Origin: Polaribacter gangjinensis
GTDB taxonomy: Bacteria; Bacteroidota; Bacteroidia; Flavobacteriales; Flavobacteriaceae
Assembly (NCBI RefSeq): GCF_038024125.1
Contig: NZ_CP150662.1
Span: 1,133,501 to 1,197,500 of the forward strand
Reading direction: 5' to 3'
DNA length: 64,000 nucleotides
Both the position numbers and the translations under genes were made by a program. Below the pieces are notes generated by a model. That model saw only the letters and a program-made list of their open reading frames with translations. It did not search any database and was not told the DNA's origin. This document shows positions 11,020 through 31,227 of the stretch, one piece after another. How positions within the stretch are numbered: the stretch's first letter is position 1; each line of letters begins with the position of its first letter.

Positions 11020-11020
11020 A

Positions 11021-14030: not shown

Positions 14031-14103
14031 AAAAGTTGGTTTTTTAAAAGATAATTTTTTGTTAATTTCTGTTTAACGTTATTAAATATTAATTAAACAT
14101 AAC

Positions 14104-14111
14104 TATCTTTG
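14104..14111 (+). promoter_or_regulatory. -7 element TATCTTTG immediately before a start codon
   Basis: Exact TAnnTTTG match ending 8 bp before ATG 14120, so the mRNA would have a leader of only a few bases. Confidence 0.55.
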
Positions 14112-14119
14112 ACATAGTT

Positions 14120-14542: not shown

Positions 14543-14818
14543 ATGGAAAATTTAGACACAATAGCAATAGATAGAATCATTGAAATGGCTTGGGAAGATA
14601 GAACGTCTTTTGAAGCAATTCAGTTTCAATTTGGCCTAAAAGAACAAGAAGTCATTGAATTGATGCGCAAAGAGATGAAACCAAAAAGTTTCAAAATGTG
14701 GAAAGAACGTGTTCAAGGACGAAAAACAAAACATGAAAAATTACGAACTTTTGAGCAAGGACGCTTCAAATGTTCAAGACAAAAATCAATATCAAATAAC
14801 TCTATATCAAAAAGATAA
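14543..14818 (+). CDS. DUF2805 / TIGR03643 family protein
   Basis: 91 residues. The first 50 form a helix-turn-helix-like unit (RIIEMAWEDRTSFEAIQFQFG), followed by the conserved KEMKPKSFKMWKERVQGRKTKH block and a basic tail ending KCSRQKSISNN. This is the TIGR03643 pattern, a short family found next to photolyases in marine bacteria and cyanobacteria. Its fold suggests nucleic-acid binding; function is unproven. It begins directly after the preceding stop codon and lies 63 bp before folE. Confidence 0.85.
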   Translation: MENLDTIAIDRIIEMAWEDRTSFEAIQFQFGLKEQEVIELMRKEMKPKSFKMWKERVQGRKTKHEKLRTFEQGRFKCSRQKSISNNSISKR

Positions 14819-14881
14819 ACCTCGTGCTTTGCTTTTAAGCTTGGAGTACTTAAAGACAGCACATTAAAAAGAAACAAAAAG

Positions 14882-15580
14882 ATGATTACAGAAGTCGTAT
14901 TAAAAGAAAAAGAAACAGAGCAAAAGTTCAATGGATTTTCATTCGAAGAAATTGGAGATGACCATTTGTACACAGGAATTGAAACTCCTATGAAACCAAA
15001 TGCTTTTGACATTTCTGATGAAGAAAAAAAGAAAAAAATTACATCATTATTTGCAGAAATTATGGATGTAATGGGCTTAGATTTAACTGACGATTCATTG
15101 AGAGGAACTCCAAACAGAGTTGCTAAAATGTACATTGACGAAATTTTCTCTGGATTAAATCCTGCTAACAAACCAAAAATTGCTTTGTTTGACAATAAAT
15201 ATCAATACAACCAAATGTTGGTTGAAAAAAATATCACTTTCTACTCTAATTGCGAGCACCACTTTGTGCCAATTATTGGAAAAGCGCATGTTGCTTACAT
15301 TTCATCAGGAAAAGTAATTGGGCTATCAAAATTGAATAGAATTGTTCAATATTTCGCAAAAAGACCACAAGTACAAGAACGTTTAACCAATCAAATTGCA
15401 GAAGAATTGAAAGCTGTTTTACAAACTGAAAATGTAGCTGTAATTATTGATGCAAAACATTTATGTGTTTCATCAAGAGGTATTAAAGATGATACCTCTG
15501 CTACAGTAACCTCATATTTTGGGGGTGCTTTCAATACTCCTGAAAAAATCGCTGAACTACAAAATACTTTAAATTACTAA
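14882..15580 (+). CDS. folE: GTP cyclohydrolase I
   Basis: 232 residues, the usual length. It opens GTP to 7,8-dihydroneopterin triphosphate, the entry to folate and pterins. The zinc ligands are in NCEHHFVP (Cys and His) and AKHLCVSSRG (Cys), and the QERLTNQI helix is typical. Its place among photolyases suggests it may raise supply of the folate antenna (methenyl-THF) used by several of them; that is inference. It is four bases upstream of a small hypothetical gene. Confidence 0.96.
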   Translation: MITEVVLKEKETEQKFNGFSFEEIGDDHLYTGIETPMKPNAFDISDEEKKKKITSLFAEIMDVMGLDLTDDSLRGTPNRVAKMYIDEIFSGLNPANKPKIALFDNKYQYNQMLVEKNITFYSNCEHHFVPIIGKAHVAYISSGKVIGLSKLNRIVQYFAKRPQVQERLTNQIAEELKAVLQTENVAVIIDAKHLCVSSRGIKDDTSATVTSYFGGAFNTPEKIAELQNTLNY

Positions 15581-15583
15581 GAC

Positions 15584-15811
15584 ATGGAAATCATTAATAA
15601 AGCGCTTGAATTCGAGCAAAGACCAATGAAATTCGTAACTACAAGTGATAGAATTTTAGCTTCAAGAGAAGTAAAATCGTTGATTTTAAGCTTGAATGAA
15701 ATTTATAAACAAACAAAAGATCAACAAATCATGGAAATTATGAAGCGTTTAACTGCTATCAAACAAAAAATAGAAAAACGTTTGAAAGGTTTTAAAGTTC
15801 CTGCTGCATAA
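15584..15811 (+). CDS. Small conserved hypothetical protein, 75 aa
   Basis: Not recognised. The protein is mostly helical and strongly basic toward the C terminus (KRLTAIKQKIEKRLKGFKVP), soluble and without cysteines. It starts four bases after the folE stop, which places it in that operon, and is followed by a terminator. A chorismate mutase-like or coiled-coil helix pair is possible but cannot be supported. Confidence 0.7.
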   Translation: MEIINKALEFEQRPMKFVTTSDRILASREVKSLILSLNEIYKQTKDQQIMEIMKRLTAIKQKIEKRLKGFKVPAA

Positions 15812-15873
15812 TTTAAAATTTCTTTGGATTCACTTTTAAGTATCAAAAGAAAATTCCTTTTATTTTACTGATA

Positions 15874-15917
15874 TAAAAACAGGTTTTTCTATTAACATGA
15901 AGAACCTGTTTTTTAAA
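15874..15917 (+). terminator. Terminator of the folE unit
   Basis: AAAAACAGGTT pairs with AACCTGTTTTTT across a loop of about 20 nt; a T run follows. Confidence 0.7.
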
Positions 15918-15954
15918 TAAAATATAAATTAACATTTGTGTAATAAAATTGAAT

Positions 15955-15962
15955 TACATTTA
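15955..15962 (+). promoter_or_regulatory. Probable promoter before the SDR gene
   Basis: TTTG at 15935-15938 and TACATTTA at 15955-15962 (16-bp spacer), one mismatch to TAnnTTTG, 21 bp before ATG 15984. Confidence 0.45.
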
Positions 15963-15983
15963 ACCTAAAGATTTTCAAAAAAA

Positions 15984-16667
15984 ATGAAAAAAATAGTTGT
16001 AATTGGCGGAAGTAGAGGAATTGGAAATGCTATTGTAAACGCCTTGGTTTCTGAAAATCAAATCATCAACATCAGTAGAAATCATCCTGAACAAACACAT
16101 CAAAACTTAGTACATTACTCTTGTGATATTTTAACAGACGAATTACCAACAATTGATGCCATAGATAGTCTAATTTATTGTCCTGGAAGCATTAATTTGA
16201 AACCAATATCAAGATTAAAATTGGAAGAATTCAGAGAAGATTTTGAAATCAATGTGATTGGTGCTGTAAAAGCTATTCAGCATTTTTTACCTGTTTTAAA
16301 GAATGGAAAAAATCCTTCAATTGTGTTATTTAGTACTGTTGCAGCAAAATTAGGCATGCCTTTTCACGCAAGTGTTGCTACTGCAAAATCAGCTGTTGAG
16401 GGTTTAACAAAATCATTGGGTGCTGAGTTAGCACCAACAATTCGCGTTAACGCTATTGCTCCAACAGTTACCAATACTGATTTAGCTTCGAAGTTATTGC
16501 GCAACGAAAAAATGATTGAAAACATCACTGAACGTCATCCATTGAAAAAGTTTTTAAATCCTAAAGAAGTTGCAGCCATGGCAAGTTTTTTAATTTCTGA
16601 AAAAGCATTGTCAATTTCTGGTCAAATTTTTGAATTGGATTGTGGCATTGTAAGTTTTAAAATCTAA
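15984..16667 (+). CDS. Short-chain dehydrogenase/reductase (classical SDR)
   Basis: 227 residues, close to the classical SDR length. The cofactor motif is GGSRGIG at the N terminus, the NN motif is replaced by YCPGSIN, and the active site has the catalytic Ser in LFSTVAAK. The usual Tyr of YxxxK is replaced in the segment HASVATAKSAVEG, where Val or Ala occupies the Tyr position. The enzyme may therefore use another base or be non-catalytic. It is the first gene of a second photoprotection operon with glutathione peroxidase and TspO. Substrate unknown. Confidence 0.88.
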   Translation: MKKIVVIGGSRGIGNAIVNALVSENQIINISRNHPEQTHQNLVHYSCDILTDELPTIDAIDSLIYCPGSINLKPISRLKLEEFREDFEINVIGAVKAIQHFLPVLKNGKNPSIVLFSTVAAKLGMPFHASVATAKSAVEGLTKSLGAELAPTIRVNAIAPTVTNTDLASKLLRNEKMIENITERHPLKKFLNPKEVAAMASFLISEKALSISGQIFELDCGIVSFKI

Positions 16668-16671
16668 AAAA

Positions 16672-17142
16672 ATGAGTTTATACGATATCAAAATCAATAG
16701 TTTACAAGGAAAACAAGTTAATCTTTCTGATTTTAAAAGTAAATACTTGCTATTTGTAAATGTTGCCTCTAAATGTGGCTTTACACCACAATATGAAGAT
16801 TTGGAAAAACTACATCAAATGTATAAAGATACATTGGTTGTGATTGGAGTTCCTTGCAATCAATTTGGAAAACAAGAACCTGGAAATGCAACTGAAATTC
16901 AAGAATTTTGCGAGGTAAATTATGGAGTTTCTTTTTTGATGTTAGAAAAAATTGATGTAAAAGGCGAGAATCAACATCCTTTATACACTTGGTTAACATC
17001 AAAAAGTTTGAATGGAAAGAAAAGTTCTTCTGTAAAATGGAACTTTCAAAAATATTTAGTTGATAAAAATGGCGAATTGATTGATTATTACTTTTCCATC
17101 ACAAAACCAACAAGTTCAAAAATTACAAATCACTTAAAATAA
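16672..17142 (+). CDS. Glutathione peroxidase family protein (thiol peroxidase)
   Basis: 156 residues of the GPx family, reducing peroxides with thiols, probably thioredoxin in this lineage. The catalytic tetrad is visible: Cys in NVASKCGFTPQY (about residue 35), Gln in PCNQFG (about 70), and Trp-Asn in VKWNFQKY. No signal peptide is seen, so it acts in the cytosol. It starts four bases after the SDR stop and fits protection against light-driven oxidative damage. Confidence 0.95.
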   Translation: MSLYDIKINSLQGKQVNLSDFKSKYLLFVNVASKCGFTPQYEDLEKLHQMYKDTLVVIGVPCNQFGKQEPGNATEIQEFCEVNYGVSFLMLEKIDVKGENQHPLYTWLTSKSLNGKKSSSVKWNFQKYLVDKNGELIDYYFSITKPTSSKITNHLK

Positions 17143-17146
17143 ACCA

Positions 17147-17320
17147 ATGTTTGGATTGTTTAAAAAAAAGTCTGAAGTAGAAAAACTTCATGAAAAATAT
17201 AAAAAACTTATGCAAGAAGCGTATCAATTACAATCCGTAAATAGAAGTGAAAGTGATCAAAAATATGTAGAAGCTGATGAAATTTTAAAGAAAATAACGC
17301 TTTTAGAACAAAAAAAATGA
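17147..17320 (+). CDS. Lacal_2735-type small protein, 57 aa
   Basis: Read from ATG 17147, four bases after the peroxidase stop: begins MFGLFKKKSEVEKL and is a single charged helix ending LLEQKK. This matches the small flavobacterial family named after Lacal_2735. It has no cysteines or membrane segment. Its TGA overlaps the ATG of the TspO gene (ATGA), indicating coupling. Function unknown. Confidence 0.85.
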   Translation: MFGLFKKKSEVEKLHEKYKKLMQEAYQLQSVNRSESDQKYVEADEILKKITLLEQKK

Positions 17321-17781
17321 AGCCAATTACCTATTTTTTTATATTCTTTGTACTCAATTTTGGAGGCTTAGCTTTTGGAAGTTGGTTAATGAATAACGGT
17401 CCAACTTCTGATTGGTATTTGAATTTAAATAAAGCTCCTTGGACGCCTCCAGGCTGGGTTTTTGGAGTTGCCTGGACAACTATTATGATTTGTTTTTCAT
17501 TTTATTTGACAAAACTTTTCACTACCGAAAATGACAAAAAAATTATTTCTATCACATTTTTAATTCAGTTTGTATTAAATGTGAGTTGGAACTACTTATT
17601 TTTCAATAAACATTGGGTATTTATTGCTTTAATAGGCATCATTTTACTTACATTCGTAGTGTTTTATTTTTACTTTAGCCTTAGTAAAAACGCTCAAAAA
17701 TATAAATTTCTATTGTTACCATATATGATTTGGTTGTGCATTGCAACTTCATTAAATTTATATGTATTAGTTAATAATTAA
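17317..17781 (+). CDS. tspO: TspO/MBR family membrane protein
   Basis: 154 residues with five predicted transmembrane helices. The signature Trp/Pro-rich loop WYLNLNKAPWTPPGWVFGVAW between helices 1 and 2 is characteristic of the TspO/peripheral benzodiazepine receptor family, which binds porphyrins and, in bacteria, controls photosynthesis or oxidative-stress genes. Location in the photoprotection island suggests handling of photosensitising tetrapyrroles or carotenoid-linked regulation; the latter is inference. The start overlaps the previous stop, and the next gene begins after one base. Confidence 0.93.
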   Translation: MKPITYFFIFFVLNFGGLAFGSWLMNNGPTSDWYLNLNKAPWTPPGWVFGVAWTTIMICFSFYLTKLFTTENDKKIISITFLIQFVLNVSWNYLFFNKHWVFIALIGIILLTFVVFYFYFSLSKNAQKYKFLLLPYMIWLCIATSLNLYVLVNN

Positions 17782-17782
17782 A

Positions 17783-18244
17783 ATGAAAATTTATACAGTT
17801 CACAAAAAGCAACAACTTCCAATAGCTGTTGATGAAGCTTGGATTTTTTTGTCAAATCCCAGAAATTTAAAAATCATCACTCCTGCTTACATGAGTTTTG
17901 ATATTATTTCTGGAGCCGAAAAACCCATGTTTGCTGGTCAAATTATCCAGTATTTAGTAACGCCCATTTTAGGAATTAAAACCAAATGGGTTTCAGAAAT
18001 CACACACTTTGAAGAAAAAAAATATTTTGTTGATGTTCAATTATATGGTCCTTATGCTTTGTGGCATCACAAACATTTTATCCATGAAATTGATGGTGGC
18101 GTTGAATTAGAAGATATCATTGATTACAAAGTTCCATTAGGAATTTTAGGACAAATGGTACATCCATTTTTGGTAAAACCTAAATTGGAAGAAATTTTTC
18201 AATACAGACAACAAAAGATGAGCGAATTATTCGGAAAAATGTAA
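17783..18244 (+). CDS. SRPBCC (START-like) ligand-binding protein
   Basis: 153 residues with the helix-grip pattern of the SRPBCC superfamily: it begins with a beta strand ending AVDEAWIFLSNPRNLKIITP, then has the HFEEKKYFVDVQLYGPYALWHHKHFIHE strand-strand region and a long C-terminal helix (about 120-150). The group (COG4276) binds hydrophobic ligands, none known here. It lies between tspO and a photolyase with gaps of one and four bases, so it is surely co-expressed with them. Confidence 0.85.
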   Translation: MKIYTVHKKQQLPIAVDEAWIFLSNPRNLKIITPAYMSFDIISGAEKPMFAGQIIQYLVTPILGIKTKWVSEITHFEEKKYFVDVQLYGPYALWHHKHFIHEIDGGVELEDIIDYKVPLGILGQMVHPFLVKPKLEEIFQYRQQKMSELFGKM

Positions 18245-18248
18245 ATAA

Positions 18249-19553
18249 ATGAAAGAGAAAATAAACATATATTGGTTTAGAAGAGATTTGCGTTTGGATG
18301 ATAATTGTGGATTTTTCAATGCCTTGCAATCAAAAAATAAGGTACTTCCTATATTTATTTTTGACACTGAAATTCTTTATAAATTACCAAAAAATGACGC
18401 AAGAGTAACTTTTATCCATGAAACGTTACAACAAATGCGTTTAGAATTACAGGAAAAAAACTTAGGAGATATTGCAATTTTCAACGGAAAACCAATAGAA
18501 ATTTTCAATCAAATTAGTGAAAAACTAGAAATCGAGTGCGTTTTTACGAATCATGATTATGAACCTTATGCTACAAAACGCGATCAAGTAATAGCAAATT
18601 TTTTAAATGAAAAAAATATTCAATTTCATACTTTTAAAGACCAAGTAATTTTTGAAAAAAATGAAATTGTAAAAAAGGATGGAAATCCGTATGTAGTTTA
18701 CACGCCATTTATGCGAGCTTGGAAAGAGAAGTTCAAAGCAGAAAAACTAATACATTTCGATTCAGAAAATCATCTCAACAATCTTTTAAAAGAGTTTGAT
18801 TTTCAAAACTTATCACTTACTGATATTGGATTCGAAACATCCAATCAAAAAATTGTTCCTTACACAGTTTCTTCAAAATTGATCCAAGAATATGAAGAAA
18901 CTCGAAATTTTCCTGCAAAAGATGCTACATCAAAATTAGGACCCCATTTGCGTTTTGGAACCGTAAGTATTCGTAAAATGGTTGCGAAAGCAATCGCAGA
19001 GAAAAATGAAATCTTTTGGCAAGAATTGATTTGGAGAGAATTTTTCATGCAAATTTTATGGCATTTTCCGCACACAGTTTCAGATAGTTTTAAACCAAAA
19101 TACGATCGAATTGAATGGCGAAATAATGAAACTGACTTCAAAACTTGGTGCGAAGGAAAAACAGGTTATCCATTAGTGGATGCAGGAATGCGTCAACTGA
19201 ACGAAACAGGTTTTATGCACAACAGAGTTAGAATGTTGGTTGGTAGTTTTTTATGCAAACATTTGTTGATTGATTGGAGATGGGGAGAAGCCTATTTTGC
19301 AGAAAAATTACACGATTACGAAATGGCAAGTAATGTTGGTAACTGGCAATGGGTTGCTGGCTCTGGAGTAGATGCAGCGCCTTATTTTCGAATTTTCAAT
19401 CCAACATCACAAATTGAAAAATTCGATAAAAATTTAACATATATCAAAAAATGGGTTCCTGATTTTCAAGAATTTACTTATCCAAAACCTATTGTAGAAC
19501 ATTCTTTTGCGAGAGATCGCTGTTTGAAAACTTATAAAGAAGCCTTAGGCTAA
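18249..19553 (+). CDS. phrB: Class I deoxyribodipyrimidine (CPD) photolyase
   Basis: 434 residues. The N-terminal antenna domain starts INIYWFRRDLRLDDN. The FAD domain has RFGTVSIRKM, WQELIWREFFMQ, GYPLVDAGMRQLNETGFMHNR and WRWGEAYFAE...ASNVGNWQWVAGSG, which is the class I CPD photolyase core including the Trp electron chain. It repairs cyclobutane pyrimidine dimers with blue light. It closes the operon that starts with the SDR at 15984 and is the fourth photolyase-family gene within 10 kb. Confidence 0.95.
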   Translation: MKEKINIYWFRRDLRLDDNCGFFNALQSKNKVLPIFIFDTEILYKLPKNDARVTFIHETLQQMRLELQEKNLGDIAIFNGKPIEIFNQISEKLEIECVFTNHDYEPYATKRDQVIANFLNEKNIQFHTFKDQVIFEKNEIVKKDGNPYVVYTPFMRAWKEKFKAEKLIHFDSENHLNNLLKEFDFQNLSLTDIGFETSNQKIVPYTVSSKLIQEYEETRNFPAKDATSKLGPHLRFGTVSIRKMVAKAIAEKNEIFWQELIWREFFMQILWHFPHTVSDSFKPKYDRIEWRNNETDFKTWCEGKTGYPLVDAGMRQLNETGFMHNRVRMLVGSFLCKHLLIDWRWGEAYFAEKLHDYEMASNVGNWQWVAGSGVDAAPYFRIFNPTSQIEKFDKNLTYIKKWVPDFQEFTYPKPIVEHSFARDRCLKTYKEALG

Positions 19554-20047: not shown

Positions 20048-23000
20048 ATGAGTAAAATAGATATTAATTGTACTGATTTTTTCAATTTAAATCCTCTTCC
20101 CTCTTGGATTTATGAAATTGCAACATTTCAAATTTTGGAAGTAAATGCGGCTGCAATTGAACTTTATGGGTACTCTAGAAAAGAGTTTCTTTCTCTTACT
20201 TTAAAAGATTTACAACCAAAAGAAACTTTTTTAAAATTAGATGGTTCTTTAAAAAACATTGATACCACTGAAGGAAAAATTCACTTCGGAATTTTATCTC
20301 ATCAAAAAAAGAATGGCAACCTTATTCAAATAGACATGGTGGGTCATAAAGTAAACTTTAATAATAAAAAATCTATTTTAACTATTTCTCAAGATGTTAC
20401 TGAAAAACAGGTTCAACTAGCAAAACTTAAAAAAACAGAAGAACAATTTAAAGAAGCTGCAAATATTGCTAAATTAGGTTATTGGAGACTTGAACTCGCT
20501 ACAAATACAATTACATGGACAGAAGAAGTTAGTCAAATTTGGGGTGGAAAAAATGAAAAAAAACAATTAACCCTTCAAGGTGTCCTTGATACCATTTATC
20601 CAAATGATTTAGAAAATCTTTTAGAACGTTATGAAAAGTCCATCAGAGAAGAAGGTTTTCATGATGCTATCCATAGAATTGTTTTACCAGATTCAACAAT
20701 AAAATGGGTTCATGAAATAGGTAGTTTAAAAAAAGATGAAAACGGAAATCCAATAAGTTTAGAAGGAACTGTACAAGATATCACAGAACGAAAAGAGGAA
20801 GAAGACCGATTAAAATTACTTGAAAGCGTTATAACAAATATTAATGATGCTATTTTAATCACAGAAGCAGAACCTATTGAAAATACCGGTCCTAAAATTA
20901 TTTATGCAAATAAGGCTTTTACAGAAATGACTGGTTATACAGTAGAAGAAATTATAGGAAAAACTCCTCGTATTTTACAAGGACCTAATTCTGATAGAAG
21001 CGAGCTAAATAAACTTAAAAATGCCCTTAAAAACTGGCAACCTTGCGAAATAACTACAATCAATAATAAAAAAAATGGAGAAGAATTTTGGGTAAATCTT
21101 TCAATTACTCCAATTGCAAATGAAATTGGCACTTTTACAAATTGGATATCAATACAAAGAGATGTTACAGAAGAAAAACAAAATCAACTTAAAAAAGATT
21201 TATTAGCTAAAATCAGTGCTAATTTTAAAAATGAAGACTCATTAGTTTCTTCGACAAACAAAGTTTGTCAAACAATTTGTGACTATGGAAATTTTGATTT
21301 TGTAGAAATTTGGCTCCCAAATCTTGATAAAACAAAAATAAATCTTATCACAAAAAATAGCAATTCGAAAATTGCTGAAAAATTTTATAAATCATCTTTT
21401 GATATAACTTCTTTACACCCACAAGAAGGAATTCCAGGAGTAGTTTGGCAAAAAAAATCATCAGTAATATGGGGTGATCTTGGTAAAAACTTAGATTTTG
21501 TAAGGAAAGATGCTGCTGAAAATTCAGGTATTAATACAGCACTTGGTATTCCACTTTTATTTAATAATGAAGTAATTGGTGTGATGATGATTGGAACAAA
21601 AAACAAATCTACTTGTTTAAAACACCATCAAAAAACTCTTGAAGATTTAAAAGAATTTATTGGCTCTGAAATCAATCGTAAAAAACTAGAAAATGATTTA
21701 AACCATTTATATGATGCTGTTCCTGATTTAATTTGTGTAACTGATTTGAATGGAAAATTTCTAAAGATAAACAGAGCAGGCTGTGAAATGATTGGATATA
21801 ATGAAGATGAAATATTGCATTACAATTTTGAAAAATTTATTCATCCTGAAGATAAAAATATCTCTAATTCAGATTTAGAAATTCTTAATAGTGGTAAAAG
21901 CATTATAAATTTTCAGAACAGATACATTAAAAAGAATGGTGAAATTGTTTGGTTAAGCTGGACAAGTAATGCTAATTTAGTGGAAGGATTAATTTATGCG
22001 TCTGCAAAAAATATTACTCAAGAAATTAAACTTTTAGACTTAACAACACAAACATCAAAATTAGCAAGAATTGGAAGTTGGGAAGTTGATACTATTAATA
22101 ACAAAATTTATTGGTCAGATATGGTTCATGAACTTCATGAAACTGACCCTCAAAAATTTATTCCAGAAATTGAATCAAGTATAAATTTTTATAGAGAAGA
22201 TTTTAAAAATTTAGTTACAAAAAAAGTAAATGACTGTGTTGAATTTGGAATACCTTTTAACTTTGAAGCTGTTTTAGTTACCGCAAAAAATAATGAATTA
22301 TGGATAAAAAGCATTGGAAATGCTGAATTTGTCAATGGAAAATGTCATAGAATTTTTGGTAGTTTTCAAGATATTAACGACCGCAAACAAACTGAATTAC
22401 GTTATCAATCCTTAGCAGATAATTTACCTGGTGTTGCATATCAATATCTAATACATCCTGATGGTACTGATTCTATTCGATATGTCACGAAAGGTTCATA
22501 TGAACTTTGGGGATATAGTCCTGAGGAGGTAATTGCTAATATAAATTTACTTTGGAAACAAATTGAACTTGGAGGAAGTTTAGAACGAGTAAAACAAGCC
22601 GTTTTAGATTCTATCACATCAAAATCAAAATGGACTGCAACTTGGCGAAATGTAAAACCAAATGGCGAAGTTAAAACCTATTTAGGATTAGGAACTCCTA
22701 GTTATTTAATTGATGGTACCATACTTTTTAACTCAGTTGTTTTAGATGTTACCTATGAAGAAAAAAACAAGGAATTATTAGAGCAAACATCAAAATTAGC
22801 CAGAATTGGAAGTTGGGAGGTTGATTTGATCAATAACCAATTATTTTGGTCTGATATTGTTTATGAAATTCATGAAACTTCAATAACTGATTTTAATCCA
22901 AATATTGATACAGCAATTAATTTTTATCGAAAAGATTTTCGAGATTTGATTGCATGCAGAGTTCAGGATTGTATTAAAAACGGAAAACCATATAATTTTG

Positions 23001-25000
23001 AAGCAGTTTTGGTTACCGCAAAAAATAATGAAATTTGGATACGAACCCATGGAAATGCTGAAATAATCAATGGAAAAGTCATAAGAATTTATGGAAGTAT
23101 TCAAGATATTAATCAACAAAAACTCAATGAAATTGCTCTGAAAGCAAGTTTAAAAAATATAGAAGATTATAAGTTTGCTCTTGACGAATCTGCAAGTATT
23201 ACAATTACCGATTCAAATGGAATTATAAAATATGTAAATGATAGTTTTTGTAATCTTTCTAAATATTCAAGAGAAGAATTAGTTGGAAAAACGCACCAAA
23301 TTATCAATTCAAAATACCATTCAAAAGCCTTTTTTAAAGAACTTTGGGACACCATAACAGCAGGAAAAGTTTGGAGAGGAGAAGTAAAAAACAAAGCAAA
23401 AGACGGTTCTTTTTATTGGGCATTAAGTACTGTAATCCCATTTTTAGACTCAAATAACAAGCCATTTCAATTTATGGCCATAAGAATTGATATCACAGAG
23501 AAAAAAATGGCTGATGAAAAAGCGATTTCAATTTTAAATGAAAAAAACAAAATATTAGAAAGTATTGGTGATGCCTTTTTTGCAGTTGATAAAAAATGGA
23601 TTGTAACCTATTGGAATAGAGAAGCTGAAAATTTAATTGGAAAAAAACGATCCGAAATTTTAGGAGAAAATTTTTGGGAAATTTTCAAAGAAGGTATAAA
23701 TCTTGGCATCTATAAAAACCTTAAAAAATCTCTAGAAACAAAACAAAATCTGAATATTGAAATTTACTCAGTAATCTTAAAAAAATGGTTAGAAATTAAT
23801 GCTTATCCTTCAAATGGTGGCTTATCTGTATATTTTAAAGATATTACTTTAAGAAAAAAAGCCGATTTAAAACTACTTGAAGCCAATGAACGATTTGAAA
23901 ATGTATCAGTAGCAACAAGTGATGCCATTTATGAATGGGGAATTATTGATGACACGCATTATTGGGGTGCAGGTTTTGAAACAATCTTGGGCTATGATTT
24001 AAAAACTGAAAAACCATCGTCAAAATTATGGTTAGATCAGATTCATCCTGATGATGTAGAACGTGTTCGAAAAAGTGTATTTGATGCTATTGAAAATCCA
24101 AACATCATGAAATGGGCTGAAGAATATCGTTTTATCAAAAAAAATGGAGAACAACTATTTGTAATAGATAGAGGTCTTTTCTTAAGAAATAACAATCAAA
24201 AAGCTGAAAAAATGTTCGGTTCAATTTCAGATTTAACCAAACAAAAAAATCAAGAACAAGAGCTAATAACTTTAAATAATTCTTTAAAAAAATATACCAA
24301 AGATTTAGAATTAACAAACCAACAATTAGAACAATTTGCTTTTATTGCTTCACATGATTTGCAAGAGCCTTTAAGAATGATTACTAGTTTCATGGAGTTG
24401 TTGAAAAGAAGGTACGAAACTTTATTAGATGAAAAAGGTAATCAATACATCAATTTTGCAAATGATGGCGCTAAAAGAATGCGACAAATAATTTTAGACT
24501 TATTAGATTTTTCAAGGGCTGGAAAAATAAATGAAAAACGAGAAACATTTGCTATAACTGATATAATTAAAGAATATCAATTTTTAAGAAATCAAATAAT
24601 TAAAGAAAAAAATGCAGAAATTATTTTCTCAGAATTACCTGTAATTCAATGTTATAAATCCCCCTTCATTCAAACATTACATGGATTGATAGATAATGCC
24701 ATTAAATATTCTTCAAAAGATATACCCCCAAAAATTACCATTTTTGCTGAAGAAAAAGATGATCATTATAAAATATCCATTCAAGATAATGGCATAGGTA
24801 TTGACCCAAAATTCCATGAAAAAATATTTGTTATATTTCAAAGACTTCACAATAAAGATACTTATGAGGGAACTGGAATTGGTTTGGCAATTGCTAAAAA
24901 GCAAGTAGAATCTTGGGGTGGAGAAATTGGGGTTATTTCAGAAATTGGAAAAGGTGCTACATTTTTCTTTACAATTCCCAAAATGATAATAGCTTCTTAA
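20048..25000 (+). CDS. Multi-PAS/GAF sensor histidine kinase, 1650 aa
   Basis: A soluble hybrid-free kinase without membrane segments. Order as I read it: about ten PAS domains (starting near 10, 130, 255, 550, 675, 795, 918, 1035, 1160 and 1280) with one GAF domain (about 380-545) after the third, then HisKA with phosphoacceptor His1436 in ASHDLQEPLR, then HATPase_c with NAIKYSS, DNGIGID and GTGIGLAI boxes. The PAS at about 675-785 and 918-1028 are near duplicates. The third PAS resembles LOV domains but has TPRILQG where the photoactive Cys should be. A single-domain receiver follows 73 bp downstream and is the likely partner. Ligands are unknown. Confidence 0.93.
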   Translation: MSKIDINCTDFFNLNPLPSWIYEIATFQILEVNAAAIELYGYSRKEFLSLTLKDLQPKETFLKLDGSLKNIDTTEGKIHFGILSHQKKNGNLIQIDMVGHKVNFNNKKSILTISQDVTEKQVQLAKLKKTEEQFKEAANIAKLGYWRLELATNTITWTEEVSQIWGGKNEKKQLTLQGVLDTIYPNDLENLLERYEKSIREEGFHDAIHRIVLPDSTIKWVHEIGSLKKDENGNPISLEGTVQDITERKEEEDRLKLLESVITNINDAILITEAEPIENTGPKIIYANKAFTEMTGYTVEEIIGKTPRILQGPNSDRSELNKLKNALKNWQPCEITTINNKKNGEEFWVNLSITPIANEIGTFTNWISIQRDVTEEKQNQLKKDLLAKISANFKNEDSLVSSTNKVCQTICDYGNFDFVEIWLPNLDKTKINLITKNSNSKIAEKFYKSSFDITSLHPQEGIPGVVWQKKSSVIWGDLGKNLDFVRKDAAENSGINTALGIPLLFNNEVIGVMMIGTKNKSTCLKHHQKTLEDLKEFIGSEINRKKLENDLNHLYDAVPDLICVTDLNGKFLKINRAGCEMIGYNEDEILHYNFEKFIHPEDKNISNSDLEILNSGKSIINFQNRYIKKNGEIVWLSWTSNANLVEGLIYASAKNITQEIKLLDLTTQTSKLARIGSWEVDTINNKIYWSDMVHELHETDPQKFIPEIESSINFYREDFKNLVTKKVNDCVEFGIPFNFEAVLVTAKNNELWIKSIGNAEFVNGKCHRIFGSFQDINDRKQTELRYQSLADNLPGVAYQYLIHPDGTDSIRYVTKGSYELWGYSPEEVIANINLLWKQIELGGSLERVKQAVLDSITSKSKWTATWRNVKPNGEVKTYLGLGTPSYLIDGTILFNSVVLDVTYEEKNKELLEQTSKLARIGSWEVDLINNQLFWSDIVYEIHETSITDFNPNIDTAINFYRKDFRDLIACRVQDCIKNGKPYNFEAVLVTAKNNEIWIRTHGNAEIINGKVIRIYGSIQDINQQKLNEIALKASLKNIEDYKFALDESASITITDSNGIIKYVNDSFCNLSKYSREELVGKTHQIINSKYHSKAFFKELWDTITAGKVWRGEVKNKAKDGSFYWALSTVIPFLDSNNKPFQFMAIRIDITEKKMADEKAISILNEKNKILESIGDAFFAVDKKWIVTYWNREAENLIGKKRSEILGENFWEIFKEGINLGIYKNLKKSLETKQNLNIEIYSVILKKWLEINAYPSNGGLSVYFKDITLRKKADLKLLEANERFENVSVATSDAIYEWGIIDDTHYWGAGFETILGYDLKTEKPSSKLWLDQIHPDDVERVRKSVFDAIENPNIMKWAEEYRFIKKNGEQLFVIDRGLFLRNNNQKAEKMFGSISDLTKQKNQEQELITLNNSLKKYTKDLELTNQQLEQFAFIASHDLQEPLRMITSFMELLKRRYETLLDEKGNQYINFANDGAKRMRQIILDLLDFSRAGKINEKRETFAITDIIKEYQFLRNQIIKEKNAEIIFSELPVIQCYKSPFIQTLHGLIDNAIKYSSKDIPPKITIFAEEKDDHYKISIQDNGIGIDPKFHEKIFVIFQRLHNKDTYEGTGIGLAIAKKQVESWGGEIGVISEIGKGATFFFTIPKMIIAS

Positions 25001-25917: not shown

Positions 25918-26307
25918 TTATAACGATAATAAAAACTCAGGTGTTATCGGTTTTGTAGTATATTTAAATACATTGGCATTCAATTTTGTTCTCAAAATAT
26001 CATTGTCATTAATACTGCTTGATACTACACAAATTTTGCATTTTTTCCCACATTTAATATCTAATTCATCTAGTTTATCTATAAATTCAATACCATTCAT
26101 TCTTGGCATATAAATATCTAATAAAATAATTTCTGGTAAATTATCATGGTTATTTTTATTATTGTGTAAATACTCAATTGCTTTTTCACCATTATCAAAC
26201 TCTAAAATAGTTTCTGCGATGTTATTTGTTTTTATAAGAACATTCACTAAATAATTATCAATAGCATCATCATCGACAATCATTATTGTTTTGTATTTGA
26301 AACTCAT
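25918..26307 (-). CDS. Single-domain response regulator
   Basis: 129 residues, receiver only, on the minus strand. Acidic pocket MIVDDDAID, phosphoacceptor Asp64 in ILLDIYMP, Ser in VVSSSI, Lys in YTTKPI: all active-site residues are kept. It lies 20 bp downstream of the LytTR gene, from which it is probably co-transcribed, and may be the phosphate-accepting partner that the degenerate LytTR receiver lacks; that pairing is inference. Confidence 0.9.
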   Translation of the reverse strand: MSFKYKTIMIVDDDAIDNYLVNVLIKTNNIAETILEFDNGEKAIEYLHNNKNNHDNLPEIILLDIYMPRMNGIEFIDKLDELDIKCGKKCKICVVSSSINDNDILRTKLNANVFKYTTKPITPEFLLSL

Positions 26308-26327: not shown

Positions 26328-27080
26328 TTATTGATGGTTGATAAATTTCATAAATTCTTCTTGCCTTCTTTTTGCAACTGGCAAAATGTGACCATTTTTT
26401 AATTCGCAAAAAAGGCCATTATTTTTAATAATTTTCACTAAATATTTAATATTCACAACATATGAATGATGTATTCTAAAAAAATTATTGTTAAAAGAAA
26501 GCGCATACTCTCCAAGATTTTTACTAGAAATTATTACTGAAGCATTAATTGTATTGAATTCAGTGTATTTCCCATCAGCTTTACAGAAAATAATATCATC
26601 CATTTTAAGCAGCTCTATTTTATCAACAGATGAAATAGAAACATATTCGAAATTTTGAGGCAACGCATTGATAGTTTTGATTTTACCTAAAACATCATCC
26701 TGAAAAACAGTTTCCATCTCTAAATATTTGATGGTTTTATAAATAGAAATTATTAGCGAATTGGTGGTTAAAGGTTTTAATAAAAAATCAATTGCATTAA
26801 AACCAAATGCCTCAAAAGCCTGGCATTTATCTTTGGATGCAAATAAGAGTTTTGGTTTTCTTACAGTTAAATCATTTAATATTTTAGGATCAAAAACATG
26901 CTCATCTCGACTGATAAAAAGAACATCTGGCTTTTTTTCATTTATAAGTTTTGTGATGTTTTTACAATCTTCAACAATATCTAAAATTGAAAATAAAACA
27001 GAATTTTCAATCTCAAATTGTTGTAGCAATTTAATTACTTCAATGTCATTTTCAATAACTATTGCTTGTAAAACTTTCAT
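26328..27080 (-). CDS. LytTR-family regulator with degenerate receiver
   Basis: 250 residues. The N-terminal 115 residues have a receiver fold, but the phosphoacceptor site reads DVLFISRDE with Ser57 where Asp is expected, and the acidic pocket is reduced to IENDIE; the conserved Lys is kept in FLLKPLT. The C-terminal part (about 145-250) is a LytTR DNA-binding domain with the typical DIIFCKADGKYTEF, FFRIHHSYVVNI and GHILPVAKRR segments. LytTR proteins bind pairs of 9-bp direct repeats about two helical turns apart. Such pairs occur 1.3 kb away at 28412-29316, so this is the natural candidate regulator for them. It diverges from the GAF kinase gene. Confidence 0.92.
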   Translation of the reverse strand: MKVLQAIVIENDIEVIKLLQQFEIENSVLFSILDIVEDCKNITKLINEKKPDVLFISRDEHVFDPKILNDLTVRKPKLLFASKDKCQAFEAFGFNAIDFLLKPLTTNSLIISIYKTIKYLEMETVFQDDVLGKIKTINALPQNFEYVSISSVDKIELLKMDDIIFCKADGKYTEFNTINASVIISSKNLGEYALSFNNNFFRIHHSYVVNIKYLVKIIKNNGLFCELKNGHILPVAKRRQEEFMKFINHQ

Positions 27081-27159: not shown

Positions 27160-28347
27160 ATGAAAATATATGATATTCAAAGACATAAAGTGCTAGTTGA
27201 ATTGAGTCTATTAGATACGCAGTCTGAAAAAATGTTTGACGATATCACAAAATTAGCCTCAAAAATATGCGAAACACCAGTCGCTTTATTCACTGTTTTA
27301 GATATCCATAAACAGCTTTTTAAATCAAGATTTGGCTTGTCAATTTCAGAAACTCCTATTGAACAAGCCTTTTGTAAAATAGCTATCGAGAAACCTGATG
27401 AAATACTCAGCGTTAAAGATGCTCGAATTGACAGTCGTTTTTCAAACAATCCCTTAGTTTATGACGATCCAAAAATTGTTTCTTATCATGGAGTTCCTTT
27501 AAAATCAACTTCAGGTATACCTTTAGGGACTTTGTGCGTAATTGATTACAAAGAAAAAATACTTTCAGATGAACAAAAAGAGATGTTAATCATTTTATCA
27601 AAACACGTAGAATACTTGATTGAGTTGCGCTCAAAAACAAAATTGATAAACGAATACCAACAAAAAATTGAGAAAGCTGCTAAAGAGATGGAAGATTTTG
27701 TGAATATAGCTGTTCATGATTTAAAAGCTCCTGTAAGGTCTATTGATTCGTTCATGAAACTTTTAGACAAAAAACATCAAGCAAATTGGGATGATAAAGA
27801 CCAAAAGTATATTGAATTCATTTTGCAAAGCACTGTTAAAATGACCAATTTAATTACTGATTTGTTAGAATATGCAAAAAGCACAAAATCAGATGAAAAT
27901 TTTGAAACCTTTGATGTTAAAGAATTAGTAATAGAACTTTTCAAAAATCTAATTTTCAATTTGAATGAAAAACCTACATTGATATGTGGTGATATGCCAA
28001 AAATTTACTCATCAAAAATTGCGTTTACGGTTCTGTTTACCAACTTTTTATCAAATGCTATCAAGTATAAAAAAGATGAAGAACCTTTAATTATTGAAAT
28101 CAATTGTTTACAGGATGATGAATTCTTGATTTTTTCAATAAAAGACAATGGAATTGGCATTGAGTCAAAGTTTTTCGATTATATTTTTAAACCATTCAAA
28201 CGCTTACATCCGAACTCAAAATACGAAGGCTCTGGTTTAGGATTGGCTATTTGCAAAAAAATTGCTGACAATTTAAACGCTGAAATAACTTTAGCATCTG
28301 ATTTAGATAAAGGCTCTACTTTTATTTTAAAAGTGCCAAATATCTAA
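27160..28347 (+). CDS. GAF-domain sensor histidine kinase
   Basis: 395 residues, soluble. The GAF domain spans about 18-165 (FTVLDIHKQLFKSRFGL, VSYHGVPLKS, GTLCVIDY), HisKA contains His186 in VHDLKAPVRS, and HATPase_c follows with NAIKYKK, DNGIGIE and GSGLGLAI boxes. It senses an unknown small molecule or redox state. It is divergent from the LytTR gene, with 79 bp between them, and is the last protein gene before the small-RNA array. Confidence 0.92.
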   Translation: MKIYDIQRHKVLVELSLLDTQSEKMFDDITKLASKICETPVALFTVLDIHKQLFKSRFGLSISETPIEQAFCKIAIEKPDEILSVKDARIDSRFSNNPLVYDDPKIVSYHGVPLKSTSGIPLGTLCVIDYKEKILSDEQKEMLIILSKHVEYLIELRSKTKLINEYQQKIEKAAKEMEDFVNIAVHDLKAPVRSIDSFMKLLDKKHQANWDDKDQKYIEFILQSTVKMTNLITDLLEYAKSTKSDENFETFDVKELVIELFKNLIFNLNEKPTLICGDMPKIYSSKIAFTVLFTNFLSNAIKYKKDEEPLIIEINCLQDDEFLIFSIKDNGIGIESKFFDYIFKPFKRLHPNSKYEGSGLGLAICKKIADNLNAEITLASDLDKGSTFILKVPNI

Positions 28348-28411: not shown

Positions 28412-28511
28412 CCATTTATTCCAAAAAAAAAATACAGTTATACTTAAATAAGCACAACTAATAACTGAAATTGATTTTAATTTATAGAGATATAAATTTC
28501 ATATAATTTTG
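28412..28511 (+). promoter_or_regulatory. LytTR-type promoter module 0 (drives sRNA unit 0)
   Basis: Direct repeats CCATTTATT (28412-28420) and ACAGTTATA (28434-28442); their TTAT cores are 22 bp apart, separated partly by a 10-A tract that may have slipped. The -7 element TAATTTTG at 28504-28511 starts 66 bp after the second core, as in the three sister modules. No TTG is seen at -33, which fits activator dependence. Confidence 0.65.
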
Positions 28512-28515
28512 TTTT

Positions 28516-28617
28516 GTTAATAATAATGTTTCATAGTGTAATTTTAGTTTTAACTAACATGCAAATTGTTAGAAATTCACTCCTAGAATATTCCCCCGAA
28601 TTCTAGGAGTTTTATTT
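28516..28617 (+). ncRNA. Candidate small RNA, unit 0
   Basis: About 100 nt from the predicted start after TAATTTTG to a terminator hairpin with arms ACTCCTAGAAT (28579-28589) and ATTCTAGGAGT (28600-28610), a loop containing CCCCC, and a T-rich tail. It is the most diverged of the three units; the 5' part does not share the block found in units A and B. A 15-codon frame at 28559-28606 runs into the hairpin but is not present in the other units. Confidence 0.6.
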
Positions 28618-28700
28618 TAAACAAAAAATACAGTTCCAAAATAAATGAAATTATAACATTAAAAATAAACGAAATATCATACTGAAATCACTGTATTCAA

Positions 28701-28799
28701 CCACTTATTCCTTATAAAAGTACACTTATATGTTTAAAGGTTCGTGAACTTACCAAACACCTTTTTACTTTCTAAAACGCTTTTTAAAATGTAACTTTA
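28701..28799 (+). promoter_or_regulatory. LytTR-type promoter module A (drives sRNA unit A)
   Basis: Direct repeats CCACTTATT (28701-28709) and ACACTTATA (28722-28730), cores 21 bp apart. GTTC lies at 28740-28743, 14 bp after the second core, followed by ACTTACC at 28748. The -7 element TAACTTTA (28792-28799) starts 66 bp after the second core. No -33 TTG. Confidence 0.75.
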
Positions 28800-28803
28800 C
28801 CAT

Positions 28804-28915
28804 GTAAAAAAGATCAAATAAAGTTCATAAAAATAAATCCCCATTTTCCCTAAAACCCCTAAATCTTCAAAAATCTTCTAGAATTCACCCCATCAATTCT
28901 AGAAGATTTTTTTTT
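28804..28915 (+). ncRNA. Candidate small RNA, unit A
   Basis: About 110 nt. It begins at a 23-nt block (28803-28825) that is identical in unit B. The middle is unstructured and carries CCCC at 28839, CCC at 28848 and CCCC at 28856. The terminator is a perfect 15-bp stem (28871-28885 with 28895-28909) with loop CACCCCATC and nine or more T after it. No start codon with a useful frame is present. Confidence 0.8.
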
Positions 28916-28948
28916 GAATTAATTTTCATTCATAATTCAATTTCAAAA

Positions 28949-29047
28949 ACAGTTATTCCAATAAAACAAACAGTTATTTTCTAAAAAGTTCGAATACTTA
29001 CCCAATTAGATTTTAGGCATTTTACCCCTTTTAAATTTGTACCTTTA
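28949..29047 (+). promoter_or_regulatory. LytTR-type promoter module B (drives sRNA unit B)
   Basis: Two identical repeats ACAGTTATT (28949-28957 and 28970-28978), cores 21 bp apart, the same 9-mer and 12-bp spacing known for AgrA sites. GTTC at 28988 is 14 bp after the second core, ACTTACC at 28996 is 22 bp after it, and the -7 element TACCTTTA (29040-29047) starts 66 bp after it. Confidence 0.78.
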
Positions 29048-29051
29048 TAGT

Positions 29052-29162
29052 GTAAAAAAGATCAAATAAAGTTACTAAAAATAAACCCCTCAACAAAACC
29101 CCTGATTCCCCTAAATCTGAAAAATCTTCTAGAATTTCCCCTTAATTCTAGAAGTTTTTTTT
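29052..29162 (+). ncRNA. Candidate small RNA, unit B
   Basis: About 110 nt. It starts with the same 23-nt block as unit A (29051-29073), then has CCCC at 29086, 29099 and 29108, then an 11-bp terminator stem (29126-29136 with 29144-29154), loop TCCCCTT and a run of T. It is noncoding and clearly a paralogue of unit A. Confidence 0.8.
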
Positions 29163-29285
29163 ATGATATATATTTTGATTAAAGTTGTTAGTAATGAATC
29201 AAAATTAAAGCACAACAATTTTATAAAACATTAAAATTAATTACAGTTTCGTCAAAAATTCATCATTATAGCTTATTGTAAAAAT

Positions 29286-29384
29286 CCACTTATTCCTTAA
29301 AACACTCCACTTATTATACCTAATGTTCAAGTAATACCCTTTTACAATTTCTCATTAAGAAACTATAATTATAGAATAACTTTG
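29286..29384 (+). promoter_or_regulatory. LytTR-type promoter module C (drives the alpha/beta-hydrolase pair)
   Basis: Repeats CCACTTATT at 29286-29294 and 29307-29315, cores 21 bp apart; GTTC at 29325 (14 bp after the second core); -7 element TAACTTTG (29377-29384) 66 bp after the second core. The predicted leader to ATG 29434 is about 45 nt. This ties the two protein genes to the same control as the small RNAs. Confidence 0.75.
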
Positions 29385-29433
29385 TGATGTCTTTTTATTA
29401 AAAAAAGAATTTTAATCCTCTAAAATTAAACAC

Positions 29434-30348
29434 ATGACTGCTCAAGATTGGAAAGATTCAGGAAAATTTATAGATATCAACGAAAATAAACTTTTTGTAA
29501 TTGATACAGATCCAGCAACATCCGATAAAGAAACCATCGTAATTATTAGTGGCTACCCTTTAAACTCTTTTGATTACCATCAAATAATTGACATGTTAAA
29601 AGATTATTATAGAGTAATCATTCATGATCATGCTGGATTTGGATTTTCTGACGAACCAAAAGATTTCAACTACTCTATTCTTGATCATGCCAATGATTGT
29701 GTGAAATTGTATAGCAAATTAAAGTTAAAAGACTTCACCATTTTAGCATCACAATATGGAGCAATGATTGCAAAAGAAATATTGCATAAAAAAAATTACA
29801 ACTTAATTCCTTTCAACATCAAAGACGTTGTTATCACAAAAAACAATAGTGATCAGTTATACTCAAGCATCAATGCTATTTACTATTTAAATAGCAACAA
29901 ACATATCCCAAAATATAAAGAAGTATTGGCAAATCATGATGATAAAGCACTTTTCAACACTCATGATAATGGTGTATTTGATGAAAAATATAAAGACGAA
30001 GAAAAAGTTCGTGTAATTTGGGAAAACTTTCAAACCAAAGAAAGACAGAAAGAGGTATTGATTTTAAGCAACTACAATGAAGAAATATTTTTGTACTGGC
30101 ACAGGTGGATCAATGCAATGAAAGAGTCAAATGTACGAATTCACTATTTCTGGAGAAAAGATGATTTTACCAATATTCAAGATGCATTATTGTTATCATC
30201 TACTTACAAAAAAGAAAATTTTGTGATGGTAGAAAATAAAAATTGCTACACTATAGAAAACGAGCCTAAAAGTTGGTTATTAATGATTTTAGAAGAAATA
30301 AATAAGTCAACTTACCATATTTTAAAAAGAGAAACATTTGTAAGTTAA
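29434..30348 (+). CDS. Degenerate alpha/beta-hydrolase-fold protein, copy 1
   Basis: 304 residues with the alpha/beta-hydrolase topology and similarity to the MEST/haloalkane-dehalogenase-like branch (VIISGYPLNSFDYHQII, VIIHDHAGFGFSDEP). The nucleophile elbow reads ASQYG, with Gln107 in place of Ser or Asp. The catalytic His region reads NCYTIENEP, with no His. It is therefore unlikely to hydrolyse anything and may bind a ligand or partner. No signal peptide is seen. It is transcribed from a LytTR-type promoter and followed after 15 bp by a paralogue. Confidence 0.8.
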   Translation: MTAQDWKDSGKFIDINENKLFVIDTDPATSDKETIVIISGYPLNSFDYHQIIDMLKDYYRVIIHDHAGFGFSDEPKDFNYSILDHANDCVKLYSKLKLKDFTILASQYGAMIAKEILHKKNYNLIPFNIKDVVITKNNSDQLYSSINAIYYLNSNKHIPKYKEVLANHDDKALFNTHDNGVFDEKYKDEEKVRVIWENFQTKERQKEVLILSNYNEEIFLYWHRWINAMKESNVRIHYFWRKDDFTNIQDALLLSSTYKKENFVMVENKNCYTIENEPKSWLLMILEEINKSTYHILKRETFVS

Positions 30349-30363
30349 TCTAAAAAAAATGAT

Positions 30364-31227
30364 ATGGAATGGAAAAAGCATCATAAAACAATCCGTTTAC
30401 ACGAACAAAATATTTCGTATATAGATTCTGAGCAAGGAGACGAAACTTTGTTAATTCTTCATGGTTTTGCAACAAGCTCTTATGATTATCATAAAATCGT
30501 TGATGAATTAAAAAAATCATACAGAGTTATTATTCCTGATTTGATTGGCTTTGGATATTCATCAAAACCCAAACATTATTTTTACACAGCAAAAGACCAA
30601 GCAAGTCTTTTAACAGTCTTTTTAAGAGAACTAAAAATCGAAAATCTTTCCATCATGGCACAAGGTTTTGGAGTTTGTATTTTAGACGAAATTGAAAGTA
30701 TTCTTGATCTTGGTTTTGTAGATATAGCTATAAAAAATGTTTTCTTTTTAAACTCAAGAATTCAGATGGCACTAACTAAAGATGATAAAGACCTTGAAAA
30801 TCAAAGAAAAAAAATTACTTCATCTTTATTAAAACTGTCACTTTCTTACGAAATGTTTCAAAAATACATGAAAGTATCTTTTTACAAAAAAGAGGCCGTT
30901 AGTGAAGAGGAGCTCCAAAATCATTGGCAATTACTTACGTATAACAACGGTATCAAAACAATGAATTATATTGATAATTATGTGTTAGAAACCACAAAAT
31001 TTGGAAAAAGAAGACTCAGAAATCTAAAAAAATCAACATTCAACAAGTTTGTAATTTGGGGCAAAAATGATGAGAATGATTCAGTTGAAACCTTCGAAAA
31101 AATAAAAGATTTGCTCGAATTGAATCCAAAAAACATGGCATTGATTGAGGATTGTGGACATTTTCCTATGTTAGAAAAACCAGAAGAATTTGTAAAAATT
31201 GTAAAAGGATTTAAAGAATCCGCTTAA
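30364..31227 (+). CDS. Degenerate alpha/beta-hydrolase-fold protein, copy 2
   Basis: 287 residues, related to the preceding gene (TLLILHGFATSSYDYHKIVDEL, VIIPDLIGFGYSSKP). The nucleophile elbow reads AQGFG, so position 101 is Gly instead of Ser or Asp. Unlike copy 1 it keeps the C-terminal CGHFPMLEKPEEF with the catalytic His and an acidic GKNDEND turn. It is in an operon with copy 1. The loss of the same residue in both, by different substitutions, suggests a non-hydrolytic role. It ends before a terminator. Confidence 0.8.
   Translation: MEWKKHHKTIRLHEQNISYIDSEQGDETLLILHGFATSSYDYHKIVDELKKSYRVIIPDLIGFGYSSKPKHYFYTAKDQASLLTVFLRELKIENLSIMAQGFGVCILDEIESILDLGFVDIAIKNVFFLNSRIQMALTKDDKDLENQRKKITSSLLKLSLSYEMFQKYMKVSFYKKEAVSEEELQNHWQLLTYNNGIKTMNYIDNYVLETTKFGKRRLRNLKKSTFNKFVIWGKNDENDSVETFEKIKDLLELNPKNMALIEDCGHFPMLEKPEEFVKIVKGFKESA

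Follow-up and report, generated by a model that had tools for sequence, protein, structure and literature searches.

In the Csr/Rsm systems, activated sRNAs that carry many copies of a leader motif (GGA) titrate a translation regulator. The four sRNAs CcsR1-4 of Rhodobacter contain a C-rich motif. They lie in a row and play a role in stress defence; they are co-transcribed and processed, and they are linked to a small protein of 71 aa, and the system further features an RpoH promoter and a DUF1127 RNA-binding protein (PMC10253847). In Listeria monocytogenes, LhrC1-5 are several paralogous short sRNAs under the control of a two-component regulator, LisR, with UCCC motifs in a loop, in a single-stranded stretch and in the terminator loop (PMC4132741). 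Within the Bacteroidota, the FopS/RbpB system of Bacteroides comprises a multicopy family of 14 paralogous sRNAs with canonical promoters, one seed, a single-stranded 5′ part and a terminator hairpin, and has an RRM partner (PMC11697453). For the Flavobacterium sRNA Rfp18, the available part of the account mentions no C-run (PMC9723704). Operators of LytTR proteins have been described for BrsR and HdrR of Streptococcus, where they are located 4-11 bp before the -35 box; the BrsR operator reads ACCACTTAT-12 bp-ACCGCTTAT (PMC6193735).

Post-transcriptional control in the Bacteroidota is little explored beyond gut Bacteroides, and the phylum does not have the Shine–Dalgarno targets that C-rich sRNAs use elsewhere. 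The Polaribacter gangjinensis locus described here, located in a 64-kb window (the whole stretch of DNA that was analysed), is a compact case, as it combines an operator rule, predicted sRNAs and a candidate RNA element common to these sRNAs and to mRNA leaders (Table 1). Its repeats resemble ACCACTTAT of BrsR and have the same 12-bp gap, but they lie 66 bp before a -7 box and no -33 element was seen (compare PMC6193735). As in LhrC and the csRNAs, the C-rich motif is single-stranded and present in the terminator loop (in the loop only for sRNA A), and several paralogous sRNAs have their own promoter and terminator, although these are predicted in silico only. The locus differs from LhrC by having a LytTR protein as regulator and no Rfam match, by belonging to a phylum without Shine–Dalgarno regions, and by carrying the same C-run in the leaders of many regulon mRNAs. 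Compared to FopS, there are LytTR modules, C-runs and a genome in which the RRM_1 family has no match (the positive control, Bacteroides ihuae, was matched). Compared to CcsR1-4, the sRNAs have separate promoters and the small protein has two hydrophobic stretches. The logic proposed below is that of Csr/Rsm, with CCCC as the motif and not GGA. LytTR operators and multicopy C-rich sRNAs are known. Within the literature searched, what is new is that the two occur together, along with the 66-bp rule and the C-run of the leaders: no report was found of LytTR-driven sRNAs or such direct-repeat promoters in Bacteroidetes, of flavobacterial C-rich sRNAs or of Polaribacter small RNAs of this sort. 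If true, the reading would define a novel RNA signal close to start codons and offer a route to its binding factor, with the signal tied to a LytTR gene near photolyase genes in both this genome and that of Polaribacter sp. BAL334.

Table 1. Features of the locus, with positions counted from the first nucleotide of the window.
Feature	Position	Strand	Description
Module A	28412..28511	+	LytTR-type repeats CCATTTATT at 28412 and ACAGTTATA at 28434; third element; -7 box 28504-28511
Module B	28701..28799	+	Repeats CCACTTATT at 28701 and ACACTTATA at 28722; third element about 28743-28753; -7 box 28792-28799
Module C	28949..29047	+	Repeats ACAGTTATT at both 28949 and 28970; -7 box 29040-29047
Module D	29286..29384	+	Repeats CCACTTATT at both 29286 and 29307; -7 box 29377-29384; predicted promoter of the abhydrolase operon
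Predicted sRNA A	28512..28618	+	Terminator hairpin 28580-28609, loop ATTCCCCCGA, T-tract; ends predicted from sequence
Predicted sRNA B	28800..28911	+	Four runs of at least 3 C; terminator arms 28869-28885/28895-28911, CCCC in loop
Predicted sRNA C	29048..29162	+	Four CCCC runs; terminator stem 29126-29154, CCCC in loop
Leader of abhydrolase mRNA	29385..29433	+	TAATCCTC here; CCCC in three relatives
Alpha/beta-hydrolase gene behind module D	29434..30348	+	Pfam Abhydrolase_1, 3.3e-10
Second alpha/beta-hydrolase gene	30364..31227	+	Pfam Abhydrolase_1, 1.3e-18
Stand-alone response regulator	25918..26307	-	129 aa; Pfam Response_reg, 1.1e-16
LytTR regulator	26328..27080	-	250 aa; receiver-like domain without acceptor Asp, and LytTR domain; Pfam PF04397, 1.6e-14
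Histidine kinase	27160..28347	+	Divergent from the LytTR gene; Pfam HisKA and HATPase_c

The repeat pair occurs four times in the 64-kb window, all within one 1.1-kb stretch, and was found neither on the opposite strand of the window nor in any of 2000 dinucleotide shuffles of the stretch. The repeat pairs and -7 boxes lie where the preliminary description had placed them. Read directly, the TTAT cores are 22 bp apart in module A and 21 bp in B, C and D, leaving a gap of 12 bp between the 9-bp direct repeats (13 bp in A), and TAnnTTT begins exactly 66 bp past the second core in all four modules. In B, C and D, a GTTC located 14 bp past this core is a piece of a third conserved element, and by eye no TTG was seen at the -33 distance in the four modules. 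A looser pair, ATAAVTGN{14,15}ATAAVTG, is present six times in the whole 2.94-Mb genome, including the four of the array, against four matches of a backwards control. The two additional modules (C1:1865450 and C1:1866152) precede genes for proteins of about 72 aa with two hydrophobic stretches. TAnnTTT is found at +66 in six of six modules of this genome, compared to 6 of 600 other positions tested. With two mismatches the bare repeat pair became uninformative and was set aside, as it gave 532 matches in this genome and 619 in the backwards control.

A scan of the whole genome and its relatives, which had been proposed as a check, extends this rule. The set consisted of 166 genomes of the genus, in which P. 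gangjinensis (G000) is a single contig. Five Polaribacter genomes encode an orthologue of the LytTR protein: G000, Polaribacter sp. BAL334 (G126, L058), Polaribacter sp. MAG_07 (G152, L057), the MAG CG2_30_31_66 (G006, L059) and G081, which is probably P. litorisediminis. Eighteen modules were gathered in them by the repeats alone. TAnnTTT lies at 66 bp in 18 of 18, a C at +17 is invariant, and the modules also share a third element, approximately CNNNTRCTWAC, between +17 and +27, as well as a run of T at about +37 to +40. This count leaves out the group-2 genomes and three pairs: L045:6159 and L114:1917, which are off the 66-bp fit and each share a repeat with a counted module, and L054:15813, which stands alone without TAnnTTT at 66 bp. 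The G081 modules of the leader scoring and G152_S3 came from searches whose pattern included the -7 box, and give no independent support for the distance. Perfect copies of the whole-module pattern number five in G000, five in G126, four in G152, two in G006 and three in G081, which has five more with one mismatch. In G171, G013 and G020, which have no LytTR orthologue, there are none with 0-1 mismatch and three with two; the backwards control gave two matches in eight genomes at up to two mismatches. As an off-by-one control, a 67-bp variant has four matches in the 166 genomes, two in G081 and one each in G150 and G002, with none in G000, G126, G152 or G006. The two in G081 look genuine, one of them preceding a small-protein gene and the other, at L251 (G081:C1:3430057), an apparently decayed one.

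Behind modules A, B and C no conserved reading frame was seen; each is followed by a hairpin with a T-tract ahead of the next module. These three modules appear to drive tandem genes for predicted sRNAs that are about 105-115 nt long and each end in an intrinsic terminator. The earlier view of the four modules as promoters had missed that A-C would lead into sRNA-like transcripts. A 25-codon ORF inside sRNA A was rejected, as by eye its start codon is not kept in the counterpart of this sRNA in G126 (L053). In a simple terminator scan of both strands, only C was listed among the three hairpins. Across seven sRNAs of three genomes, 97.1% of the cells of the terminator stem are paired and three pairs are changed on both sides; pairing drops to about half or less when the stem is slid by one to three columns. 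Of 500 shuffled hairpins, 1 reached the observed value for cells paired, 1 for the covariation score, 15 for two-sided pair changes and 380 for further pair types, and the covariation term came out unfavourable in a full-length alignment that misaligns part of the stem.

With a cut-off of more than 45 bits, the terminator model has matches only in G000 (three), G006 (two) and G126 (three) of the 166 genomes. The third G126 site was outside the model-building set; it is located at the end of a contig, directly before module D, so that BAL334 would have the same order A-B-C-D if its two contigs join. At E<=0.001, matches extend to 81 of 166 genomes, and those outside the three genomes, the best of which scores 40.5 bits, were taken as generic terminators; the opposite strands of the P. 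gangjinensis hairpins themselves score 43.6 and 41.7 bits. No match was found in G152, of which the contigs end here, and no such sRNA was recognised in G081. In G006, one sRNA is located beside the kinase gene and one before module D elsewhere. An Rfam search of the window and the array yielded only tRNAs and chance microRNA models, with no sRNA match above the gathering score. As for module D, an orthologue of the first hydrolase gene follows its counterpart in G126, G152 and G006, and the order of the two hydrolase genes, which probably form one operon, is the same in G126 and G152.

The candidate RNA element is a run of C residues. Nine of the 22 plus-strand runs of at least 4 C in the window fall in 28500-29170. 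Predicted sRNAs B and C each have four runs of at least 3 C including the one in the terminator loop, often as CCCCTAA, whereas sRNA A has a single C-run, in its loop; the sRNAs repeat a CCCC(T)AA motif, and none contains a run of at least 3 G. Among the mRNAs driven by modules, 11 of 18 leaders also contain CCCC (9 of 10 outside G081, 2 of 8 in G081; the P. gangjinensis leader behind module D is without it), and CCC in 15 of the 17 of the first scored set. The small proteins of about 72 aa, encoded behind modules outside the array, belong to a family without Pfam entry that has 77 matches in 25 of 166 genomes, with tandem gene copies in G081 and G009. Leaders were read for 49 of these 77 matches. 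In 32 of 35 further small-protein leaders (28 of 31 and 4 of 4; two of the first 31 are flagged as lying behind a repeat pair), CCCC is found at most 30 nt from the start. As background, CCCC precedes 10 of 215 longer genes, or 7 of 212 without the three module D genes of relatives; the leaders in the CCCC counts are related and not independent, and kinship was left uncorrected.

From the modules, their conservation, the terminators and the C-runs, which are observed in silico, we infer steps of transcription, LytTR binding and titration. The LytTR protein encoded at 26328-27080 would bind the two, perhaps three, direct repeats and activate promoters that do without a -33 element and have their -7 box 66 bp past the second repeat core. 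Modules A-C would then drive the three tandem sRNAs, each ending at its intrinsic terminator, module D the alpha/beta-hydrolase operon, and the two distant modules the membrane proteins of about 72 aa. The sRNAs would share their C-run (CCCC, often CCCCTAA) with many regulon mRNAs, which have it just upstream of the start codon, and could act in trans, titrating away a factor that would bind to the C-run in the vicinity of start codons. Taken as a whole, i.e., the core of a LytTR regulon with C-run sRNAs that most likely act in trans through the leader C-runs, this reading is considered probable. An RNA element would mark the members of the regulon, and the sRNAs would serve as decoys or as base-pairing regulators. 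Since the motifs of sRNAs and leaders are identical and not complementary, a shared binding factor with decoy sRNAs is the simplest reading; the titration step on its own is put forward tentatively, base-pairing being nearly as likely. A broader circuit in Polaribacter, in which a factor recognises CCCC(C) by start codons and several LytTR systems release it via C-run sRNAs, is rather unlikely.

In the best surviving alternative, the sRNAs are repressors of which the C-runs and the terminator loop pair with G-runs of mRNAs, like LhrC and the csRNAs, and the leader C-runs serve otherwise. The combination of single-stranded C-runs, a C-run in the loop, several copies and two-component control is the layout of Listeria LhrC (PMC4132741), and the Bacteroides FopS sRNAs repress through pairing near start codons (PMC11697453). 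However, the usual G-rich target is missing in Bacteroidota, because their mRNAs are naturally without a Shine–Dalgarno region, as far as described in PMC6847099. Moreover, the regulon leaders carry the same C-run and not its complement, and GGGG precedes only 5 of 215 genes. Base-pairing is regarded as a real possibility, though not as the expected outcome.

The preferred reading places the modules under LytTR control, as the preliminary description did, and most simply under the protein at 26328-27080. This is well supported in silico. The repeat sequence and the 12-bp gap (13 bp in A) match published LytTR operators, as far as these are described in PMC6193735. The 66-bp module is present in all five Polaribacter genomes having the orthologue and, at 0-1 mismatch, absent from the three without it that were searched. 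Thirdly, such repeats are present upstream of the Flavobacterium orthologues (46-51% identity) in five of six full loci. There, some 8 kb ahead of the LytTR gene and on its strand, a repeat matrix scores more than 14 bits (L060:2449, L062:1597, L063:1592, L064:1603 and L065:1598, of which L063 and L065 are near copies; L061 is the exception). The reversed control of these loci gave no match, while at 14 bits there was one reversed-control match in the window, and two extra weak matches in L046. By eye, the 66-bp distance was not found at the Flavobacterium loci. In L060, the locus read for gene order, the repeats are followed by an adhesin-like gene, a PorP/SprF-like gene, the kinase, the response regulator and the LytTR gene (names by eye).

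Orthologues of the LytTR protein (67-90% identity) are encoded in four of the other genomes, i.e., five of 166 with its own, and all other matches listed have at most 35% identity. The response regulator adjoins the LytTR gene in G126, G152, G006 and G081; the divergent kinase is kept in G126, G152 (cut by the contig end) and G006, and G081 has another kinase at 0.9 kb. The protein has no Response_reg match in Pfam, and its predicted model shows a receiver fold and a LytTR domain (pLDDT 83, pTM 0.50), with ComE as best PDB match and the AgrA LytTR domain also matched. The acceptor Asp position is occupied by S, S, C, S and G in the five Polaribacter orthologues (Ser in P. gangjinensis) and by N, D, Q, D, D and D in those of Flavobacterium, i.e., Asp in none of five and in four of six, respectively. 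As the acceptor position is not Asp in Polaribacter, control of the protein may bypass its own phosphorylation, e.g., via the neighbouring stand-alone response regulator. The layout of a LytTR Regulatory System, with a membrane inhibitor gene in the operon, was not found, the neighbours being a kinase and a response regulator, and autoregulatory repeats before the LytTR gene are absent among the listed repeat matches of this genome.

At 9712-19553, next to the sensor kinase and LytTR genes, the window has a cluster of three genes of DNA photolyase type, one photolyase-related gene and the genes for GTP cyclohydrolase I and TspO; in G126 a photolyase gene is located 7 kb from the LytTR gene. 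In G081, the setting includes a kinase of phytochrome type together with a gene of the flavin amine-oxidoreductase family, which was interpreted as a carotenoid desaturase gene. From these neighbours, a role of the locus in light or oxidative stress can be guessed. The window also encodes, at 20048-25000, a histidine kinase of 1650 aa that contains a GAF domain besides many PAS domains and is kept beside the LytTR locus in G126.

It is improbable that the modules are regulated by another LytTR protein than the one at 26328-27080, although the genome encodes eight of them. The strict repeat pair has 54 matches in 27 of the 166 genomes, against 15 control matches with at most one per genome. At least three are found in G000, G126, G006, G152, G140, G166, G023 and G019, and none in G081. 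Near-identical CACTTATTCC repeats occur in G140, G166, G023 and G019, all lacking a close orthologue. The three orthologous loci measured there show another geometry, with three repeats and TAnnTTT 37 bp past the third core (another lies at 24). The presence of the 66-bp module in five of five genomes with the orthologue, and the same-strand repeats upstream of the Flavobacterium orthologues, further argue against another regulator. Among the loci listed for these four genomes (L099-L111), the CACTTATTCC-type repeats come in threes with a spacing of 21 bp and precede secreted-protein-like genes as well as a LytTR gene other than the one described here.

Rho prefers unstructured, C-rich and G-poor RNA, and a full Rho site is longer than a single C-run. 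The bodies of sRNAs B and C are indeed largely unstructured, C-rich and without G-runs, and could be decoys or loading sites for this termination factor. The position beside the start codon points to translation instead, and a single leader C-run would not make up a full Rho site; a Rho-based explanation is very improbable. Least credible of all is that the abhydrolase operon merely has A, B and C as additional promoters or as parts of its leader, without separate sRNAs, as might be thought from four modules sharing one direction ahead of it. Each unit shows a terminator-like hairpin of its own before the next module begins (only C was listed in the simple scan), and in G006 one sRNA is found behind the kinase gene, at a distance from the operon.

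Besides the array, other places with C-runs, G-runs or repeats were noted. A search for C-run clusters is blind to strand and also catches coding repeats and homopolymers; some of its places were read further. At L002 (C1 ~687364-690633 of P. gangjinensis), a second C-run sRNA-like transcript directly follows another LytTR gene (237 aa, ~688.9 kb), with a -7 box at L002:1313 on the minus strand and CATCGAAA-type repeats at -79, -57 and -36 from it; the same triple arrangement is present in G126 (L238, middle repeat CATCGATA) and G152 (L241). L232:1829 (C1:351328, P. gangjinensis) is an intergenic place with four C-runs, behind which a hairpin, seen by eye, carries a fifth one in the loop. Conserved CCCCTAAGTATCCCCCTAGTATCCCC-type repeats are found at L233:2060 (C1:1543559, P. 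gangjinensis), L234:511, L236:1790 and L239:1759, covering this genome, G006 and G126. L183 (G171:C1:254500-259500) contains four tandem units of ~198 bp, each with GGGG before a CTTCTAGAAT-type terminator; possibly these are G-run sRNAs, the complement of the C-run. Lastly, L187 (G009:C1:1021208-1024770) contains eight tandem small-protein genes with a CCCCC leader each, with ACCCCTAAA or ACCCCTGAA before a terminator-like hairpin between most copies and a near-palindrome, AAGGATATTGCTTATT, upstream.
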